Positions 758-18,870 of a DNA stretch of 23,904 bases are shown piece by piece (within the stretch, counting starts at the first letter, position 1; every line of letters starts with the position of its first letter). The position numbers and the translations under genes are program-made. The notes under the pieces are model-generated. The model made no database searches, was not told the origin of the DNA, and worked only from the letters and a program-made list of their open reading frames with translations. The stretch is from a virus, in IMG/VR virus record IMGVR_UViG_3300021378_000163, positions 1 through 23,904 of that record; one strand, 5' to 3'.

Positions 758-1474
758 ATGGCACTAAAACAAATTGAATTAGAAGTACCAACAACTCTAT
801 CTGACATTAAACTTTGGCAATATCAAAAATATATGAAAGTCATAGAGCAAAACAAAACAGAGAATGCCGAAGACGATGAAAAGATAAATGATTTCTTAAA
901 TATGAAACTTGTAGAAATATTCTGTAATGTTTCACTAAGAGACGTTAGTAAGATTCCTTTGAAAGAGTTTAATAAAATACTAGAAATATTAAATAAGGCA
1001 TTTATAGAAAAACCTAAATTAATACAAAGATTTAAACTGTTAGATGTAGATATGGGGTTCATACCTAAGCTTGATGATATAACTCTTGGTGAATATGTAG
1101 ATATAGAAACTAATATTTCAGATTGGCAAAAAATACATAAAGCTATGGCTGTATTGTACAGACCAGTTAATTTTAAGGCAGAAGATAAATATACTATTGC
1201 TCCTTACAAGGTAAAAGAAGAAATACAAGAGTTAATGAAAGAGATGCCATTAGATGTAGCAATTAGTTCAATGGTTTTTTTTTACGATTTAGGGAAGGAA
1301 TTACTGGTAGCTATACCGAAATATTTGGAGCAAAAACTGAAGAAAGAGGATATGCAACAGCTAGAGATGCATTTGCAAAAAAATGGGGTTGGTATCAATC
1401 AATTTATGCACTCGCTAAAGGTGATGTCAGAAACTTCGATGCAGTTACCGAGCTTCCACTCTACCAGTGTTTAA
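758..1474 (+). CDS. Tail-assembly-chaperone-like protein, short (0-frame) form
   Basis: This 238-aa product is the normal reading of the first gene of the structural operon. It is mostly helical and acidic/basic, with no signal peptide or membrane span. It resembles the short (gpG-like) partner of tail assembly chaperone pairs mainly through its gene structure: near residues 173-175 the coding sequence crosses a T9 tract at 1275-1283, where a -1 slip opens a second frame that ends exactly at the next gene. After the slip point the 0 frame still reads as a plausible helix (LGKELLVAIPKYLEQKLKK) for about 63 residues before TAA. The ATG at 758 is preceded by an A/T-rich leader and no Shine-Dalgarno site, as usual in Bacteroidota. 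In lambda-like phages the chaperone genes lie just before the tape measure; here five genes intervene, so the role is inferred, not proven. Confidence 0.6.
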   Translation: MALKQIELEVPTTLSDIKLWQYQKYMKVIEQNKTENAEDDEKINDFLNMKLVEIFCNVSLRDVSKIPLKEFNKILEILNKAFIEKPKLIQRFKLLDVDMGFIPKLDDITLGEYVDIETNISDWQKIHKAMAVLYRPVNFKAEDKYTIAPYKVKEEIQELMKEMPLDVAISSMVFFYDLGKELLVAIPKYLEQKLKKEDMQQLEMHLQKNGVGINQFMHSLKVMSETSMQLPSFHSTSV

Positions 1475-1545
1475 ATTATTTAGCATTTGAAAAAGAAAAA
1501 GTAGACATAGAACAACAAGAATTAAAAAAAGCATATAGACAATGA
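758..1545 (+). CDS. Tail-assembly-chaperone-like protein, long form made by -1 frameshift
   Basis: A -1 slip on T TTT TTT (1276-1282) gives a 262-aa product: 175 residues from the 0 frame, then 87 from the -1 frame, starting with TTA at 1282 and stopping at TGA 1543-1545. The extension reads like a genuine protein (ARDAFAKKWGWYQSIYALAK, then VTELPLYQCLNYLAFEKEK) and matches a pattern I remember from Bacteroidota phage proteins. Its stop overlaps the next start as ATGA at 1542, the same coupling used by other genes in this operon, which is strong support that this frame is used. In phages with lambda gpG/gpGT-type chaperones the long form helps to load tail tube subunits onto the tape measure. 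The alternative explanation is an indel error in the homopolymer. Confidence 0.65.
1276..1282 (+). other. Slippery heptamer T TTT TTT for -1 frameshift
   Basis: The heptamer fits X XXY YYZ in the 0 frame of the gene (codons GTT TTT TTT TAC) inside a run of nine T. The +1 frame stops within three codons (TAG at 1290), whereas the -1 frame is open for 87 codons. A weak downstream hairpin (GGTA, loop GCTA, TACC at 1306-1317) could act as a stimulator, but it is small. Confidence 0.6.
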
Positions 1546-2033: not shown

Positions 2034-2611
2034 TGAGTTTTAGATTAGAAAATACTGAAAAATATTTAAGACAATACGCTAAATCTTTATTAGATAGTGC
2101 TATTTCAGAAATACAAAGAAAAGATAGGGTTAGAGAATATTCTACAGGTAACGTTACTTCTCCAATTGAAGCATCAGGACAATTACAAGAAAGTTTGAAG
2201 TTAATAGAAAAAGACACTAAATCTGTATTAGAATTGAATATTGAAGGAAACGCTTACGGAGAACAAATAGATGAAGGAACAAGAAGCACAAGTGTATCAA
2301 AAGATAAATTAATTCAGTGGATACAAAATAAAAATGGATTTAAAGACTTAAATGGAAAACCTGTAAATTTAAGTAATTTAAAAGAGGTAGGTAGAATAGC
2401 TGGGCTCATAAGTAAATCATTAAAGTTTAACGGAATTAAACAAACAAACTTTTTAACTAACATAGTTGAATCTAAATTTAAAGAACTGAATAACATAGAA
2501 GCACCAATATTAAAAGATGCTAATGATGATTTAGACAACATATTAAAAAGAGCAGGATATAAAAAAGGTGCTAATGAAACCTTTTCAATACAAACAAAAA
2601 TAATACAATAA
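2033..2611 (+). CDS. HK97 gp10-like neck/head-tail joining protein (192 aa)
   Basis: The central pattern, ASGQLQESLKLIEKD followed by LNIEGNAYGEQIDEGT, is the hallmark arrangement of HK97 gp10-like minor tail/neck proteins: a conserved S/A-G-x-L motif, strands, then Y-G-x-x-(I/L)-(D/N)-x-G. The remaining C-terminal half is helical and Lys-rich. Such proteins sit at the head-tail junction or at the tail terminus. I set the start at ATG 2033, which overlaps the previous TAA as TAATG; the in-frame TTG at 2027 would add only two residues (ML). The stop TAA overlaps the next ATG at 2611 in the same way. No odd features are seen. Confidence 0.6.
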   Translation: MSFRLENTEKYLRQYAKSLLDSAISEIQRKDRVREYSTGNVTSPIEASGQLQESLKLIEKDTKSVLELNIEGNAYGEQIDEGTRSTSVSKDKLIQWIQNKNGFKDLNGKPVNLSNLKEVGRIAGLISKSLKFNGIKQTNFLTNIVESKFKELNNIEAPILKDANDDLDNILKRAGYKKGANETFSIQTKIIQ

Positions 2612-3978
2612 TGTCAACAGTAATAAACACAAGAAGTCCATTCTACTTCAAAGTATCTAACGCAGACTTAAGCTCTGTTAAGTTAGAATTATACATATGG
2701 ACTGGAACAACAGCACAAAGAAACGCATCTTATAAAAGATACACTTTAACTAAAGAACAGTTGTTAGATGAATTAGACAGGGGGACAACCACTTCTACTA
2801 CAGCTAATAAATTAGTTGATAGTACACAAAACTTTAATACTACAGCTCAAGTAGGTAGCTTTATAAAGAATACAACAGATTCAACAACAGCAAGTGTTAC
2901 TGCTATTGATAGCGACACAACTTTATCTATAAGCTCCGACATTATGGCTTCAGGTGAAAACTATATACTATTTGCTAAACCTTATGTTGTATTTGAATTA
3001 AGTGAGCTTGCAAGAGATTTTATGGAAACAGAGTATAATAACTACGCAACTGACACTTTATGGATAGATGCAGACATTACTATTTATGATTCATCAGGAA
3101 CTATAGTTCAAGTAAACTCTCAAGATACAAACACATCTAGTTTCTTAGGCATAGATGGTTATGGTTACTTTGAAGATGGCACCAATCCTAGAAGTGTTCA
3201 ATACACAACACCTATGGTGCTTCAACACAATACTACGGTTTATTATAATGATGGTGCTGATATAAAGATTCCTATATATGCAGAAGCCGAGACAGTAACA
3301 GCTACACTAACAAGCACAGCAGGTGCAGATATAAACTGGGATAATGCTGATGATTTTTGGGACACTTATGATGTGACTTGGGGTTCAGGACAAACTCCTG
3401 TAGTTATAACTGATAACGGAAACACTAATCAAAAAATACAATACTTAATTATAACAGATAGTGAGGATTTAATTGATGGAGACTATGTAACTATATCTAG
3501 TAACAATGCCTCTTATTCGGATGTAGTTATAACACTTAGAAAAGTATGTGAGCCTAAATATACCCCACTAAATGTAATATTCTATAATAAATTTGGAGCA
3601 CTACAAAACCTATGGTTCTTTAAGAAATCTATGACTAATATAAATATTACCTCTGAGCAATTTAAAAATAATATTTTAGATATAGAAAACTCTGGCAGTA
3701 CGCCATCATATGCTTTAAGTAAACATCAAGAAAAGAAGTTTATGGCAAACGGAAAAGAATCAATAACTGTTAATTCAGGATTTTATAGCGAAGACCATAA
3801 TGAAGTTGTAAGAGAGATGTTGCTTGCAGAACAAGTATGGATTTTTGATGGCACAAATACTTTGCCGATAAATCTTAAATCTAATACGCTTCAATTCAAA
3901 AAGTCAGTTAATGATAAACTTATTAGTTATACTTTATCTTTTGACTATGCTTACGATAAAATAAATAATATTTTATAA
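2611..3978 (+). CDS. Large tail structural protein with inserted Thr/Ser-rich module (455 aa)
   Basis: This is a beta-rich virion protein without a family I can name. Residues 1-57 and 121-455 read as strands and loops rich in Thr, Asn and Asp. Residues 58-120 form a discrete insert that starts GTTTSTTANKLVDST and ends MASGENYIL. An insert with the same pattern occurs in the next gene (residues 555-617 there), so it is an exchangeable module rather than part of the core fold. The C-terminal part (about 310-455) contains FYNKFGALQNLWFFKKS and ends with an alternating hydrophobic pattern. It overlaps both neighbours as TAATG. Its position between the neck genes and the tape measure points to a tail tip, distal tail or baseplate component. 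Confidence 0.6.
   Translation: MSTVINTRSPFYFKVSNADLSSVKLELYIWTGTTAQRNASYKRYTLTKEQLLDELDRGTTTSTTANKLVDSTQNFNTTAQVGSFIKNTTDSTTASVTAIDSDTTLSISSDIMASGENYILFAKPYVVFELSELARDFMETEYNNYATDTLWIDADITIYDSSGTIVQVNSQDTNTSSFLGIDGYGYFEDGTNPRSVQYTTPMVLQHNTTVYYNDGADIKIPIYAEAETVTATLTSTAGADINWDNADDFWDTYDVTWGSGQTPVVITDNGNTNQKIQYLIITDSEDLIDGDYVTISSNNASYSDVVITLRKVCEPKYTPLNVIFYNKFGALQNLWFFKKSMTNINITSEQFKNNILDIENSGSTPSYALSKHQEKKFMANGKESITVNSGFYSEDHNEVVREMLLAEQVWIFDGTNTLPINLKSNTLQFKKSVNDKLISYTLSFDYAYDKINNIL
2782..2970 (+). repeat. Protein module copy 1 (about 63 codons)
   Basis: This segment encodes GTTTSTTANKLVDST through SGENYIL inside the 455-aa tail protein. It aligns without gaps with the module at 5640-5828. 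The two protein copies are clearly alike (GTTTSTT.NKL.DST, then NTTD.TTA, then DIM.SGENY), but the DNA has drifted at many codon third positions, so the duplication is not recent. Confidence 0.7.
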
Positions 3979-6406: not shown

Positions 6407-6553
6407 ATGATAAAAAACGTGCTTGACTTATTGAACGCTTCTGATTGGTATGGAGCAGGAAAAAATATAGAAATTGCAAAAGGTAAATATTTAGCTGTAA
6501 AAGACTTTAAACAAATGAAAGAACAACTTAAAAGATTAAGATATGGCAAGTAA
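6407..6553 (+). CDS. Tiny hypothetical protein before the tape measure (48 aa)
   Basis: An ATG at 6407, three bases after the previous stop, opens a 48-codon frame ending in TAA at 6551-6553, which overlaps the tape measure start by 11 bases. The product (MIKNVLDLLNASDWYGAGKN, then IEIAKGKYLAVKDF) ends in a basic helix, KQMKEQLKRLRYGK. I recall very similar tiny proteins next to tape measure genes in Bacteroidota phages, but no function. The tight fit between stop, start and overlap argues that it is real. It could help tail assembly, by position only. Confidence 0.6.
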   Translation: MIKNVLDLLNASDWYGAGKNIEIAKGKYLAVKDFKQMKEQLKRLRYGK

Positions 6554-8375
6554 AAAAATACTTATTCAAGTAATACTTGATGATAAAAATGTAGCAGCAA
6601 AGTCAAATCAAATATCTAAATCTGTTGATGGTGTTACTAGAGCACAACAAAAATATTTTCAGGCATTACAACCTACTAATGTAGAGATTGAAAAATATAA
6701 ACTATTAACTAAACAAGCACAAGCTGCAACGGAAGCGAAAGCAAGAGCAGAATTAAACGCAGCAGAAGTTACAAAACAAGGCAGGGCTCAATCTGGATTA
6801 AATAATGCAATATTATTAGAAACAGGTCGTTTAGCTTCAGATGCATCTTATGGATTTACTGCTATTGCAAACAACTTGTCTCAGGTTGTTACTTTGTTCT
6901 CTAGTTTTGCAGAAACTAATGGAGGTGTAGTTGCATCATTAAAAGAGCTAGGAAGGTCATTGTGGGGAATGGGAGGATTTTTAATTGGAATACAATTATT
7001 AATTTCATTTGGTCCAAAAATATTAGATTTCTTTACAGGAATGACTAAAGAAATGAAAGAGGCTAAAAAAGCACAAGAAGAATTAAACAACTCACTTGAC
7101 GAGTTAGGTACAAAAATATTTCAAGCACAAAAATATGCCGATGCAATAGAAAATGTAAATACTAGCGAAGAGGTTAGAATAAATTTAACAAATGAATTAA
7201 TTAATTTGATTCCAGAATTAACTCAAGAAGATTTTAAGTATGGAGAAAATCTAGATGATGTAAGGGGTAAAATTACAGAATATGCTTTATCACAAGCGTC
7301 TAGACTAGAAATTGATAGATTAGTAGAGGAAAATAGCGAAATATTATCAAAAGCAGCATCTGCAAGAAGAATATCAGAAATAAAGAATGAAAAAGAAAAA
7401 ACAGAAGCGATGAAAAAATTCCTTGAGCAACAAGGAATGGATGTTCAAGCAAGAATTGATGAAAGAAAATATGGCGCTTTAGAATTTATTGGTACAGATG
7501 CTGAAACAATAGCAGCAGAATTTAATATGATGACTGCTGAAGCTTTGTTCGCATCTCAAGCAATAGAAAAACAATTAGAAGAACTTTATAAAAACCTTAA
7601 AAGACAGGGTGATATAGGAAAAAGAGATGCTGTAGAATTGTTAGAGTTATTTAGATTTGGATTAGAAACTAACGAATTCTATTTACAAGGTTTTACAGGT
7701 CAACAAATAATGGCTATGGAAGCTTTATCAGAAGGTGTAAAAGAGAGAAAAGATGAGTTGAATGATTTTGGTGATGCTTATATAGATAAGGCAAAACAAA
7801 TAACAGAAGCAGAAAAAGCTGAAACAAAAGCTAGAGTTGCAATAAGAGAAGGTTATTTTGATGCTGCAAAATCCATTAGTCAAGGATTTAAAGCTTTAGG
7901 AGATTTAGATGACGGTTTTAAAATAGCAGCAATTATAACAGAAAAAGCTGAAGCTATAGCTAAAGTAATTGTTAAAACTAAAGAAAGTAATCAGATAATT
8001 TCAGCAGCAGGTAAAGCAAGAGCTATGTTAGGAGACCCTACAGCTATTCCAAAAAGTAGAGCAAGAAGGTTATCAAATAACATTAGTGCAGGAATAAATA
8101 TTGCTGGTATAGTTGCAGCAGCAGCAGGAGGTATAAACGCAATTAAAAGTAAATCATCTGTAGGAACATCTTTAGGTGGTGGCGGTGAAGCAGGAGAAGC
8201 AGGAGAAGTGCAAGCTCCTGACTTTAATGTAGTAGGTGCTGGTGGTGTAAGTCAATTAGCAACCACATTAGCAGGTGTAACAGGGCAACCTTTAAAAGCG
8301 TTTGTTGTTAGCAAAGAAATAACATCAGCTCAAGAATTAGAAAGAAATATTACAAACACGGCATCAGTCGGTTAA
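6543..8375 (+). CDS. Tape measure protein (610 aa)
   Basis: The protein shows the usual tape measure features. It has a long, helical, Ala/Lys/Glu/Gln-rich sequence, few Cys or Pro, and a strongly hydrophobic segment at about 141-164 (WGMGGFLIGIQLLISFGPKI) followed by a charged coiled-coil region. A second Gly/Ala-rich hydrophobic stretch lies near 515-535 (AGINIAGIVAAAAGGINAI). A Gly-rich linker (SLGGGGEAGEAGE) precedes the last 60 residues. Tape measures run through the tail tube and set its length; at the rule-of-thumb 1.5 angstrom per residue this would mean a tail near 90 nm. No contractile sheath gene is seen in the window, which favours a siphovirus, but other genes are missing. The ATG at 6543 overlaps the tiny gene before it. 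Confidence 0.85.
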   Translation: MASKKILIQVILDDKNVAAKSNQISKSVDGVTRAQQKYFQALQPTNVEIEKYKLLTKQAQAATEAKARAELNAAEVTKQGRAQSGLNNAILLETGRLASDASYGFTAIANNLSQVVTLFSSFAETNGGVVASLKELGRSLWGMGGFLIGIQLLISFGPKILDFFTGMTKEMKEAKKAQEELNNSLDELGTKIFQAQKYADAIENVNTSEEVRINLTNELINLIPELTQEDFKYGENLDDVRGKITEYALSQASRLEIDRLVEENSEILSKAASARRISEIKNEKEKTEAMKKFLEQQGMDVQARIDERKYGALEFIGTDAETIAAEFNMMTAEALFASQAIEKQLEELYKNLKRQGDIGKRDAVELLELFRFGLETNEFYLQGFTGQQIMAMEALSEGVKERKDELNDFGDAYIDKAKQITEAEKAETKARVAIREGYFDAAKSISQGFKALGDLDDGFKIAAIITEKAEAIAKVIVKTKESNQIISAAGKARAMLGDPTAIPKSRARRLSNNISAGINIAGIVAAAAGGINAIKSKSSVGTSLGGGGEAGEAGEVQAPDFNVVGAGGVSQLATTLAGVTGQPLKAFVVSKEITSAQELERNITNTASVG

Positions 8376-8394: not shown

Positions 8395-9402
8395 ATGAAA
8401 ATAGTAGAACTACTTATAGACGAAGAACAAGAACTATCTGGGATAGAAGCTATATCTATTGTAGATGAGCCAGCAATAGAAGAAAACTTTATTGCATTAT
8501 CTAAACAGCATGAAATAAAATTAGCTGAAGTAGATAAGGAAAAGAAAATATTAATGGGTGCTGCTTTGGTTCCTAACAAGAATATTTATAGACGTAACGG
8601 AGAAGATGAATATTATATATTTTTTAGTCAGGACACCGTTAGAAAAGCATCTGAATTATTCTTAATGAGAGGCAATCAAAACAAATCTACATTAGAACAT
8701 CAAGCTGAATTGTATGGACTATCTGTAGTTGAATCTTGGATTATAGAAGACGATGTACACGATAAATCAAGAAAGTACAACATGGATTTACCAGTAGGTA
8801 CTTGGATGGTTTCTATGAAAGTAAATAACGATGAGGTTTGGAATAACTATGTTAAAACAGGTTTAGTAAAAGGATTTTCTATAGAAGGATATTTTACTGA
8901 TAAAATTGCTATGAGTAAGATAAATGAAATAGACAATGAAGAGGAAGCTAGAGAAATACTATTAGAAATTGCCAATTCAATACTAGATAACAAATATGAA
9001 TTTGCTACATATAGCGATTACGGAAGTGGAGTTAGAAACAATGCTAAAAGAGGTATTGAGCTTAACAAGAAAGTAAATAATAAATGTGCCACAAGCGTAG
9101 GAAAAATAAGAGCTCAGCAGTTGTCAAGAGGTGAGAAATTGAGTGTGTCGACGATTAAGAGAATGTACAGTTATTTAAGTAGAGCAGAAACCTATTATGA
9201 TGAATCTGATACTAAAGCTTGTGGAACTATATCATATTTATTATGGGGTGGTAAAGCAGGATTAAACTGGTCAAGAGGCAAACTAAGAGAACTTGGTGAA
9301 CTAGATTTAAACGATGATAATCCTTGTCAAGCAGGATATGAGCAAGTAGGAATGAAAGATAAAGATGGTAGAAAAGTGCCTAATTGTGTACCAAAACAAT
9401 AA
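8395..9402 (+). CDS. XkdF-type prohead serine protease with C-terminal extra domains (335 aa)
   Basis: Residues 1-170 match the XkdF putative phage serine protease family: GIEAISIVDEPAIEENFIAL at the start, KILMGAALVPNKNIYR, then TLEHQ with candidate catalytic His102, and GLVKGFSIEGYF with candidate nucleophile Ser162. Such proteases cut the scaffold and capsid precursors during head maturation. Two parts are added. Residues about 206-300 form a domain with GSGVRNNAKRGIELN, CATSVGKIRAQQL and ACGTISYLLWGGKAGL, which I know as an accessory domain in Bacteroidota phages. Residues 309-335 form a Cys/Gly tail (NPCQAGYEQVGM, then RKVPNCVP). Scaffold and capsid genes follow, which fits the role. The start ATG is preceded by a short gap of 19 bases after the tape measure. 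Confidence 0.8.
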   Translation: MKIVELLIDEEQELSGIEAISIVDEPAIEENFIALSKQHEIKLAEVDKEKKILMGAALVPNKNIYRRNGEDEYYIFFSQDTVRKASELFLMRGNQNKSTLEHQAELYGLSVVESWIIEDDVHDKSRKYNMDLPVGTWMVSMKVNNDEVWNNYVKTGLVKGFSIEGYFTDKIAMSKINEIDNEEEAREILLEIANSILDNKYEFATYSDYGSGVRNNAKRGIELNKKVNNKCATSVGKIRAQQLSRGEKLSVSTIKRMYSYLSRAETYYDESDTKACGTISYLLWGGKAGLNWSRGKLRELGELDLNDDNPCQAGYEQVGMKDKDGRKVPNCVPKQ

Positions 9403-14550: not shown

Positions 14551-14620
14551 CACTAATTTTGGTGATACAGCAAACGAGAGTACTTTACATATTGATTCAC
14601 AACCAACTTGTTTTGAATAA
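14513..14620 (+). CDS. Tiny hypothetical protein before the tail fibre (35 aa)
   Basis: ATG 14513 to TAA 14618-14620 encodes 35 residues (MANTINWAEMYCSTNFGD, then STLHIDSQPTCF). The stop overlaps the fibre start as TAATG, the same coupling used by many genes in the operon, which is the main support. Two Cys could form a disulphide or bind metal. The pattern NWAEMYC..NFG..I.SQPTCF recalls short proteins next to fibre genes in Bacteroidota phages. Confidence 0.5.
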   Translation: MANTINWAEMYCSTNFGDTANESTLHIDSQPTCFE

Positions 14621-17600
14621 TGGCTACACTTTCAGGAAATAAAATAAAAGATACTTATCAGTCGCTTGTAAAGTTCTCTGATAATGGAAACATAACAACT
14701 TCAGCTAAACAATTAACTGATGGTTTTGGTAATAACTCACCTATGTTTGTATCTACAACACAAGTAGGAATAGGAGTAACACCAGAATCAGGATTGAATC
14801 TTCACGTCTTTGGAGATGCTAAAATAGGTAGCAATCTAACAGTTATTGGAAATTTAGTAGTTGAAGGAAGCACTACAACAGTAGGGACAGATACATTAAC
14901 GGTAAAAGACCCTTTAATTGTATTAGCAAACAACAACACCTCCACAGACGCAGTTGACATAGGTTTTTATGGCAAATATACTCCTTCAGGTACTACACTA
15001 TACTCAGGACTGTTTAGAGAAGCTCTAACAGGCAAATATAGATTGTTTAAAGGATTAGAAGACGAACCTACTACAACAGTAAACACAAGTGGAACAGGAT
15101 ATGCTGTAGCTACGTTAGTTTCTAATTTAGAAGGTAATGTTACAGGAAATATTACAGGTAATATAACTGGAGATGTTACTGGAGACGTTACAGGAGATGT
15201 TACTGGTGACTTAACAGGTAACGTAACAGGAGGTACTATTTCAGGTACTACAGGAACATTTAGTGGAAATGTAGATATTGACGGAACATTAGATGTAGAC
15301 GATGTAATAAGTGTTGAAGGTTCTGCTTTTGGTAGAATAGAAATAGGTGGAGCTTCAGGTGGTTATGTAGATTTAAAAGCACCTAATTCAGATGACTATG
15401 ATTTAAGATTAATCACAAGTGTTGGAGGTGCTGAATTATTATCTATAGATACATTAAAGTTTTATACAGGTGCAACTACAGATTTAGCATTTACTATTGA
15501 TGCAAGTCAGAACGCTACTTTTGAAAATAATGTTACTATCCCAGAAACTCCTACAGCAGATACTCACGCAGCTTCTAAAGGATATGTAGATGCAGCAGTA
15601 GAAGGACAAGATACATTAGCTGAAATACTTGCTAATGGTAATACTTCAGGTGCTAATGACATTATAATGGCAGATGACCAAAGAATAAATTTTGGAACTT
15701 CTAATGCCTTAAATTTAAGATGGAGTACAACTGCTGCCTCAGGACAAGGTGCTTCAATAATAGATTCAAATAGAATATTTATTGAAACTAACTTTTTTCA
15801 ATTAAATTCAAGAACTGGAGAAAGTATGATAAGAGCTACAGGTAATTCGGATGTAGAGCTTTATTATGATAATTCAAAAAAACTTGAAACAACAAGTACA
15901 GGTGTAACGGTTACAGGAAATATAAACATAGGAGACAATAATAAAATTTTATTAGGAGATAGCGACGATGTTGAAATGTATTTTGATGGTGCTACTCAGT
16001 TTGGTATAATAAACGATACTGCTGGAGGAAGTATATTTTTAAGGTCTGATAGTTTTTTGTTTAGAAATGATACTGACCAATTTTATTCATTAAGTTCTAC
16101 TACTCACACATTTAAAAGTTCAGGTACTACAAGATTAACTGTAAACTCAGCTGGAATTGATGTAAATGGAAATATAAATGTTTCTAGTGATTTAACAGTA
16201 GATACAGACACTTTATTCGTAGATGCTTCAGAAGATTCTGTTGGTATTGGTTTGACTAATCCTGCTGATTATTCTGCTGATGAATTAGTTATAAGTGTAC
16301 CTGACGATAGTGGAATGACTTTAGTTAGTGGAACTACAGATACAGCTTATATTACATTTGCAGATGGTACAGCAGCAGCAGACCAAGCAAACTTTATTTC
16401 ACACGACCATAATACAAATACTTTAACTGTTTTTTCACAAGCTAAAGTTTCTATAGGAATACTAGAAGCTGAGGTTGCATACTTTACAGACACAGCTTTT
16501 TATGTAGATAAATCTACAACTATTGATGATACTTTAACTGTTAATGGAAACTCAACTTTTGCAGGAAATATATTATTTGATGGAAGTGGTGTAATTTCTA
16601 CAAATACTTCTGATGGTTCAGATAATGCACAATTAAGTTTAGCAGGTGGTGGTGCTGATAGTGATGGAAGGGGTGCAAGAATGAGATTATATGGAAATGA
16701 ACACGCATCATTAGCAGGTGTTGTAGATTTATCAACAGGAAATATTGCAGGTGCAGATATGTATTTAGGTGCAACAGACTCAATGATATTAAATACAGGT
16801 GGTTCAGAATCTATGCGTATAGATAGTTCAGGAAACGTAGGAATTAATGATACTATTGGATATGGTAAACTTGCAATTAAAACAAGCGGTACGTTTACAA
16901 CAGATTCTAATGACCTTGATTTTTCAGGAGTTAATATATTAATGAAAACTACTAACACGGCAACAAATGCAGTTGGTAGTGGTATAGTCTGGTTGAAGGG
17001 TGGAAATAACACCAGAAAAGTAGCAGCTATTACAAATTATACTTATGCAGATACTGACCAATCAGGATTAAACTTTTATGTGCAAGAAACTTCAAGTGGT
17101 TCAAGTGCCACTTTAACTGAGGCAATGCGTATAGACAGTTCAGGCAACGTCGGAATTGGGACTACATCAATTGATTCATCAGACGGAAGATTAAAATTGT
17201 CAGCACCAAGCGGAGCAAGTAATGTAGCAGGTATTGCTTTATATGGTAATAATAGCGGAGGTTTTGGCGGAAGTAATGTAGTAAGGTCAAAAATTGAAAG
17301 TCAAACAGACGGAACTGCTTTTGGTGCTATAATGAAATTTTATACAAATGACACTTCAAATGTTTACCAAGAAAGAATGCGTATAGATAGTTCTGGTAAT
17401 GTAAATATTGGTACACAATCAGCCGCAACTGGTAATCATAAACTTGTAGTAGAAAGTGCAAGTACAACTGGAACTGTAAATTCACATATTGCTTTGATAG
17501 GTGATAGTGCAACAAATGGACAAGGACCACAAATACTATTTTCTGAATCAGGTGATGGTCAAGCATATGCAGGTGGAACTATTGGTTTTGTTAGAACAGG

Positions 17601-18870
17601 TAGTAACAGTCAAGGCGATTTAGTTTTTGGAACAAGGGGAAGTGCAGGAGATGCTACTACGACTACAACAGAAAGAATGCGTATAGATAGTTCGGGTGTT
17701 GTACAAGTAAGAAATACTGAACCTACTATTCAGTTATATAATACCGATACAAGTTTAGTGGCTAACCAGTTAATAGGAACTGTAGATTTTTATAAATCTG
17801 ATGGAAGTGGTGCAGGTGCAGGAGTGTCGGCTTCAATACAAGTACGTTCTGATAGTTCTATTGGTGCAAAATCATATATGGCATTTCACACAGACAATGG
17901 TACAGGTTCACAAAATGCAGAAAGAATGCGTATTGACAGTTCAGGTAGCGTAGGAATTGGACAAACAAGCATACCAAGTACAGTTTTATTAGATTTAAAA
18001 GAACCAGATGCTGGTAGTGATTTAATTATAGGGTTAACGGCTGGTACTGGAGCAAGAGCGCAAATACGTTCAGAAGCACAATCTGATAATACAACTGCTG
18101 AATTATCTTTTCATACAGTAACAGGTAGCTCAACTTCAGAAAGAATGCGTATTGATAGCAATGGTGCTTTAGGTTTAGGCACTACACCACCAACAACAAA
18201 TGTGCATCCTCAACTTTTTATTGGCTCTGAATCATTTATTTTAGGAAGTACTTCAGGTGCTTTGGATATAGGTAACAATCTTTATTACAATAGTGGCTGG
18301 AAACATAGAACAACAGCAGCTGGTTCTTTACTTGATTTTGATGCTTCAGGAAATTTTATATTTTATACTGCTGCTTCAGCAGCTTCAGATAGTGCTGCTA
18401 CTTTAAGTGAAAGAATGCGTATAACATCTGGGGGGTTAATTAATATGGGTCCTCAAGCAGGTTCTGGTGCAGGAAGATTAAACATATCTGCTAACCCTTC
18501 TAATAATTATCAAATAGAGTTTTTTACTTCAGCAGGAACTTCTGTTGGTACTATTACAACTTCTGGAGGTACAACTACTAATTATAACACAACTTCAGAT
18601 TATAGATTGAAAGAAGATTTACAAGACTTTAACGGACTTGATAAAGTTTCTAAAATACCTGTATATGACTTTAAATGGAAAACAGATGAAAGAAGAAGTT
18701 ATGGAGTTATGGCTCACGAATTGCAAGAAGTTTTACCTCAAGCAGTTTCAGGAGAAAAAGATGCAGAAGAAATGCAAAGTGTTGATTATTCTAAAATTGT
18801 ACCATTATTAGTTAAGTCAATACAAGAACTAAAAGCAGAAATAGAACTATTAAAAACTCAAATAAATTAA
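14620..18870 (+). CDS. Tail fibre/spike with C-terminal S74 self-cleaving chaperone (1416 aa)
   Basis: This is the longest gene and the likely host-recognition fibre. The N-terminus (MATLSGNKIKDTYQSLVKF) is probably the virion anchor. Residues 172-203 hold eight tetrapeptides G-(N/D)-(V/I/L)-T. From about 720 onward the motif MRIDSSGNVGIG recurs about seven times (near 16815, 17128, 17380, 17680, 17929, 18148 and 18416, the last degenerate), marking repeated beta-structured fibre units. The C-terminus (from about 1324) is a peptidase S74 intramolecular chaperone: TSDYRLKED with Ser1326 and Lys1331, the five-residue spacing of the known Ser-Lys dyad, then YGVMAHELQEVLP and VDYSKIVPLLVKSIQELKAE. 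The chaperone helps the trimer fold and then cuts itself off at the Ser. Confidence 0.85.
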   Translation: MATLSGNKIKDTYQSLVKFSDNGNITTSAKQLTDGFGNNSPMFVSTTQVGIGVTPESGLNLHVFGDAKIGSNLTVIGNLVVEGSTTTVGTDTLTVKDPLIVLANNNTSTDAVDIGFYGKYTPSGTTLYSGLFREALTGKYRLFKGLEDEPTTTVNTSGTGYAVATLVSNLEGNVTGNITGNITGDVTGDVTGDVTGDLTGNVTGGTISGTTGTFSGNVDIDGTLDVDDVISVEGSAFGRIEIGGASGGYVDLKAPNSDDYDLRLITSVGGAELLSIDTLKFYTGATTDLAFTIDASQNATFENNVTIPETPTADTHAASKGYVDAAVEGQDTLAEILANGNTSGANDIIMADDQRINFGTSNALNLRWSTTAASGQGASIIDSNRIFIETNFFQLNSRTGESMIRATGNSDVELYYDNSKKLETTSTGVTVTGNINIGDNNKILLGDSDDVEMYFDGATQFGIINDTAGGSIFLRSDSFLFRNDTDQFYSLSSTTHTFKSSGTTRLTVNSAGIDVNGNINVSSDLTVDTDTLFVDASEDSVGIGLTNPADYSADELVISVPDDSGMTLVSGTTDTAYITFADGTAAADQANFISHDHNTNTLTVFSQAKVSIGILEAEVAYFTDTAFYVDKSTTIDDTLTVNGNSTFAGNILFDGSGVISTNTSDGSDNAQLSLAGGGADSDGRGARMRLYGNEHASLAGVVDLSTGNIAGADMYLGATDSMILNTGGSESMRIDSSGNVGINDTIGYGKLAIKTSGTFTTDSNDLDFSGVNILMKTTNTATNAVGSGIVWLKGGNNTRKVAAITNYTYADTDQSGLNFYVQETSSGSSATLTEAMRIDSSGNVGIGTTSIDSSDGRLKLSAPSGASNVAGIALYGNNSGGFGGSNVVRSKIESQTDGTAFGAIMKFYTNDTSNVYQERMRIDSSGNVNIGTQSAATGNHKLVVESASTTGTVNSHIALIGDSATNGQGPQILFSESGDGQAYAGGTIGFVRTGSNSQGDLVFGTRGSAGDATTTTTERMRIDSSGVVQVRNTEPTIQLYNTDTSLVANQLIGTVDFYKSDGSGAGAGVSASIQVRSDSSIGAKSYMAFHTDNGTGSQNAERMRIDSSGSVGIGQTSIPSTVLLDLKEPDAGSDLIIGLTAGTGARAQIRSEAQSDNTTAELSFHTVTGSSTSERMRIDSNGALGLGTTPPTTNVHPQLFIGSESFILGSTSGALDIGNNLYYNSGWKHRTTAAGSLLDFDASGNFIFYTAASAASDSAATLSERMRITSGGLINMGPQAGSGAGRLNISANPSNNYQIEFFTSAGTSVGTITTSGGTTTNYNTTSDYRLKEDLQDFNGLDKVSKIPVYDFKWKTDERRSYGVMAHELQEVLPQAVSGEKDAEEMQSVDYSKIVPLLVKSIQELKAEIELLKTQIN
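15133..15228 (+). repeat. Eight tetrapeptide repeats G-(N/D)-(V/I/L)-T in the fibre
   Basis: Eight consecutive 12-base units code for GNVT, GNIT, GDVT or GDLT (residues 172-203). Synonymous codons vary among units (ACA/ACT, GGA/GGT), so the repeat is kept at the protein level and is not a fresh slippage product. Confidence 0.8.

Follow-up and report, generated by a model that had tools for sequence, protein, structure and literature searches.

A single gene of a Bacteroidota virus is decoded as a short and a long protein, which diverge where reading moves one base back at a run of nine T. The split is real, far beyond chance, because the T columns are unchanged in an alignment of 51 sequences and the heptamer T_TTT_TTT is kept in 268 of 269 homologues. 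Programmed -1 frameshifting, leading to the short and long forms of a protein akin to tail assembly chaperones, is the preferred reading (probability about 0.7). The window, meaning the whole stretch of DNA analysed, is a complete, linear IMG/VR record of 23,904 bases. It contains the following features.

758 to 1474, + strand: 0-frame open reading frame, short form, 238 aa, stop at 1472-1474; residues 1-175 are the N-terminal domain common to both forms.
1275 to 1283, + strand: T9 run, unchanged on the 51-sequence tree.
1276 to 1282, + strand: slippery heptamer T_TTT_TTT, in frame, within the V-F-F codons GTT TTT TTT.
1282 to 1545, + strand: -1 frame extension, 87 codons (1282-1542) followed by TGA (1543-1545); helical C-terminal domain with the motif KWGWYQS.
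1283 to 1474, + strand: overlap of the two frames, about 190 bases, assessed by the codon-position substitution pattern and the AlphaFold model of the 0-frame product.
1542 to 2033, + strand: next gene, 163 aa; its ATG at 1542 overlaps the TGA of the -1 frame as ATGA.
6543 to 8375, + strand: gene for a 610-aa protein, probably the tape measure, located 5 kb past the frameshift gene.

The codons at the slip site read GTT TTT TTT TAC. The 0 frame extends 63 codons beyond the site, and a slip of one base back gives a product of 175 + 87 = 262 aa. The T9 tract is the only A or T homopolymer of at least nine residues in the whole window, and T_TTT_TTT occurs in frame only once among the window's genes. 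The positions of the 0 frame, the T9 run, the -1 extension, its stop and the ATGA overlap, first given in an earlier note on this DNA, were all exact on recheck.

The earlier note had named conservation of the run in relatives as a check. After pooling and deduplication, 268 of 269 distinct homologues carry T_TTT_TTT in frame, within runs of 7 to 10 T. In the sole exception (L364) a stop precedes the site, and the sequence is probably a decaying prophage copy. One homologue set had been retrieved with a pattern containing FFL, from the -1 frame, and another with FFYHLGND, the remaining sets avoiding the site; T9 counts from the FFYHLGND-based survey are biased, and were kept out of the 268/269 figure. 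A search independent of the slip region yielded 50 viral-contig loci, 53-100% identical, and T9 was found in the same phase in all 49 loci that cover the site. Relatives with T8 or T10 and one continuous frame are absent from all DNA examined, and relatives with T7, T8, T9 or T10 keep the slip in frame. Alignments are part of the evidence for the -1 extension.

Homologues fall into two very divergent clans, one made of marine and flavobacterial phages, including the Nonlabens phages P12024, the other of sphingobacterial prophages. The run measures 9 or 10 T in all 210 distinct homologues of the flavobacterial clan. In the sphingobacterial clan it is mostly exactly T7, at times 8 or 9, typically in the context AAA CA[T TTT TTT] A (58 rows; in two of them the scored run was an upstream T7 and not the KHFF site, the latter being T7 as well in L236). 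Counting the Ts before, within and after the two TTT codons, the arrangements 2+3+3+1, 1+3+3+2, 3+3+3+0, 3+3+3+1 and 2+3+3+2 were found, and sphingobacterial prophages mostly feature 1+3+3+0. Since the flanks vary and most sphingobacterial prophages have the exact heptamer, the heptamer, not a longer run, is the common denominator. In the 587-column, 51-sequence alignment the longest block free of change is the one formed by the nine T columns. The three wobble positions of the run show 0 changes, compared with 0-10 at other conserved Phe columns and 6-11 at conserved Val columns.

Wider alignment-based searches reached Bacteroidota prophages of very weak similarity. A three-row profile identified a homologue in 54 of the 250 genomes that were sampled in a single order (loci L236-L240 and L356-L385); the best 30 of its prophage matches were taken as loci. 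In the sampled order the gene homologue is a common, apparently unnamed prophage or phage-tail element. On contig IMGVR_UViG_3300046167_000393 the gene is present at either end (L029, L030), and the displayed -1 products differ in the last residue only; the pair could be either end redundancy or two copies.

Selection on the two frames was followed on the 51-sequence tree by parsimony-based substitution counts, to be taken as strong indications and not as formal tests because the sequences are related. Before the slip, substitutions at the three codon positions are 2.9, 1.5 and 8.4, a single-frame pattern; in the overlap they are 2.3, 4.5 and 3.8 for the 0 frame. Both frames have few synonymous changes across the first 31 codons of the overlap, 4.9 and 3.4 per site, where the values are 13.1 ahead of the slip and 8.2 beyond the 0-frame stop. 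Both frames are thus conserved at codon level in relatives, as the earlier note had proposed to check. In the last 31 overlap codons the -1 frame dominates (dN/dS about 0.25, versus 1.06 for the 0 frame), and beyond the 0-frame stop it behaves as a normal single frame (0.24). The notion that both frames code over about 190 bases hence holds for the first half of the overlap, and gives way in the second half to dominance of the -1 frame. When the -1 protein was randomised synonymously, a 0 frame as long as that observed arose in 0 to 3.7% of trials in 10 of 11 sequences, and in 16% of trials in P12024, where the 0 frame is short. Conservation of the 0-frame stop was discarded as evidence, since the -1 residues C-L-N/T largely force that stop.

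A homopolymer error in sequencing or assembly, or decay of the gene, would also split a reading frame, and long T runs are error-prone. The same run and phase recur in assemblies made independently from many metagenomes, isolates and prophages, and both frames are under selection; sequencing error and pseudogene status are refuted on these grounds, and the probability left to them is negligible. It is very improbable, too, that the -1 frame has a start of its own and forms a gene apart, as annotated in P12024L (P12024L_41), which does have an internal ATG in the -1 frame. The -1 frame of the window contains no ATG, GTG or TTG, and can therefore be expressed by recoding only, which excludes independent initiation there. 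In flavobacterial-clan relatives, up to about the WGWY motif, ATG is absent in 202 of 207, and all three of ATG, GTG and TTG are absent in 158 of 207. The sequences strongly support recoding into the -1 frame, and the view that a -1 slip opens 87 codons of convincing protein is borne out by the conserved heptamer, by selection and by the missing start codon.

Two agents may be responsible for the slip. The site fits the X_XXY_YYZ heptamer of -1 programmed ribosomal frameshifting, is read in the 0 frame and is conserved. Stimulatory RNA structures are common, but not universal, in -1 ribosomal frameshifting. No downstream stimulatory structure was detected in the window, L216, L054 or L338 (z about 0); around the slip site, no covarying helix was found, and an Rfam search gave no match. 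Alternatively, RNA polymerase would slip on the T9 template and produce a mixture of U8, U9 and U10 mRNAs, the last encoding the same 262-aa protein. Pure transcriptional slippage was the first reading, suggested by a constant T9 length in different codon phases. All 210 flavobacterial-clan homologues have 9 or 10 T, though 7 suffice for the heptamer, and in this clan a T-initial codon invariably specifies the residue following FF (Y 178, W 19, L 6, C 5, F 2). Between L452/L453 and L454 the phase has moved (GGT TTT TTT TTG versus GTT TTT TTT TGG) and the run is still nine. Nine is also the length from which coding regions in many bacterial genomes avoid A/T runs (PMC1088944). Against the polymerase stand the sphingobacterial clan, where T7 prevails and is phased exactly as the heptamer, and an amino acid need, hydrophobic before and aromatic after the site, which the flanking T may reflect. 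Slippage by the polymerase instead of the ribosome is rather unlikely. Given the existence of the T7 clan, ribosomal slippage is placed first as mechanism, and the polymerase may contribute in the flavobacterial clan, where A/T runs of about nine or more are present. In that clan a ribosomal slip and a polymerase slip (+1 U) give identical proteins, each with VFFLRF, so mass spectrometry for the 262-aa form, proposed in the earlier note, is blind to the difference.

A more speculative and doubtful extension is that the run of nine is itself selected in the flavobacterial clan, where slippage of the RNA polymerase would determine all or part of the ratio between the two chaperone forms, and that at the same site slippage in distant T7 relatives is ribosomal. 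If so, one decoding switch would have changed mechanism in evolution with its protein product unchanged. The T7 and T9 clans lend themselves to comparing slippage by the ribosome with slippage in transcription, as a natural experiment.

Under programmed ribosomal frameshifting, the reading preferred here, the gene would specify two proteins having the 175-aa N-terminal domain in common. Most translation would stay in the 0 frame and give the 238-aa form. A fraction of ribosomes would slip one base back at U_UUU_UUU, reading VFF and then L instead of Y, and give the 262-aa form, in which the helical C-terminal domain would take the place of a mostly disordered 0-frame tail. On the model of lambda gpG and gpGT, the pair would serve as tail assembly chaperones, with the common domain coating the tape measure protein and the -1 domain recruiting the tail tube protein, for which the 2611-3978 product is a first candidate. 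The ribosome as slipping agent, the ratio of the two forms and their chaperone role are what we infer; the chaperone role is likely.

AlphaFold models the 0-frame product with a confident fold between residues 10 and 195, approximately, and with disorder beyond about residue 207; the -1 domain is predicted to be helical (mean pLDDT 78.6). The N-terminal domain belongs to PHROG 32199 (E 1.5e-20), a family of unknown function which covers the 0-frame part only and lacks the -1 domain. The products of the gene matched nothing in Pfam, NCBIfam, the named PHROGs or the PDB, no meaningful match to solved structures was obtained by sequence or fold searches, and named chaperone families showed no similarity to them at the level of sequence or profile. 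Numerous unnamed phage proteins in the viral structure library BFVD match the N-terminal domain; the named matches, at ranks 41-50, are mostly tail assembly proteins or chaperones, and weak (E 0.18-2.2). Several unnamed proteins of 234-267 aa (A0A516L611, A0A516L5A8, A0A6J5N0W0, A0A6J7WJY4, A0A6J7XA66, A0A6J5SVK3, A0A6J5MY57, A0A6J5N3F3) match both models, that of the N-terminal domain and that of the -1 domain; judging from the models, they may be natural fusions that encode the long form in a single frame, a point against the preferred reading. Among the fold matches, Flavobacterium phage 6H was set aside, as its candidate gene lacks a long -1 extension. Searches by tblastn of distant versions against isolated phages returned P12024 or nothing.

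Where the sequence of relatives extends further upstream, the frameshift gene is preceded by a gene for the large terminase, and a gene of about 150 aa follows it in most relatives of both clans; the latter is PHROG 30964 in the flavobacterial clan, its equivalent in the other clan being recognized by position alone. The product of 6543-8375 itself matches only PHROG 30292, of unknown function. Its relative in L089 matches both PHROG 30292 and a tape-measure family, and the syntenic gene in L216 matches tape-measure families; by this homology and synteny the window gene probably encodes the tape measure, and a long tail with a tape measure protein is indicated through relatives, the frameshift gene being part of the late operon. 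The window, L089 and L216 all have a tape measure-like gene further along, downstream of the frameshift gene. It is not directly adjacent in the window, where the distance agrees with the earlier description of the frameshift as far from the tape measure. A 719-aa tape measure gene in prophage record L340 stops about 30 bases short of the frameshift gene, on its upstream side. A link between the two genes is plausible, though not by fixed position.

A recoded two-form protein could also act elsewhere than in tail chaperoning, at another late step between packaging and tail joining. The order terL, frameshift gene, gene of about 150 aa, is kept in both clans, the position between terminase and tail genes might suggest such a role, and no sequence family ties the protein to tail chaperones. 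Set against this are the weak fold matches, which favour chaperones, and the adjoining tape measure in L340; moreover, the best known frameshifted two-form late proteins of long-tailed phages are tail chaperones (reviewed in PMC5009743). A role outside tail assembly is accordingly considered unlikely. The gpG/gpGT logic proposed at the outset fits the tailed phage, the downstream tape measure, the short and long forms and the weak chaperone fold matches; a family match to sustain it was not found.

With the lambda gpG/gpGT tail assembly chaperones, the source of the analogy (PMC5009743), the gene shares a pair of overlapping frames that meet at a conserved slippery site. In both tailed phages a late gene undergoes a -1 slip and so produces a short and a C-terminally extended form, with a tape measure gene downstream. 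In contrast to lambda, the slip heptamer here is T_TTT_TTT, the 0 frame continues 63 codons past the slip with dual coding, the gene lies behind the terminase, 5 kb from the tape measure, and a sequence relation is undetectable. By this comparison the two proteins of the window are probably an unannotated counterpart of the tail-building helpers of lambda. The tail chaperone frameshifts of HK97 type, reportedly treated by Xu, Hendrix and Duda in 2004, likewise combine a conserved frameshift with low sequence similarity, but no sequence link to the window proteins was found, and gene order and overlap differ. Two fs-genes of a GeneTack cluster measured 6-7% in experiments (PMC3711429). Direct homologues, about 30% identical to the window gene, reside in the Nonlabens phages P12024L (genes 40/41) and P12024S (genes 38/39). 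They have T9 in the same phase and the same -1 domain, but are annotated as two hypothetical proteins, and their 0 frame stops 25 codons after the slip, not 63. Current annotation (P12024, PHROG) thus splits or misses the long form. The present reading gives a testable identity to a widespread gene of Bacteroidota phages and prophages annotated without function, and implies that two-form decoding has been kept across sequences diverged almost beyond recognition.

Other features of the window were observed in passing. The AT-rich intergenic sequence at 603-672, which precedes the frameshift gene, has a 74% identical copy near the other contig end (22660-22718); the copies could be regulatory or an end repeat. 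Positions 14620-18870 encode a 1416-aa fibre-like protein, the C-terminus of which (YRLKEDLQDFNGLDKVSKIPVYDFKWK...) we take to resemble the self-cleaving intramolecular chaperone domain of tail fibres. An XkdF-type phage protease (Pfam Peptidase_S78_2) is encoded at 8395-9402, and its extra C-terminal region, past residue 183, matches other phage families.
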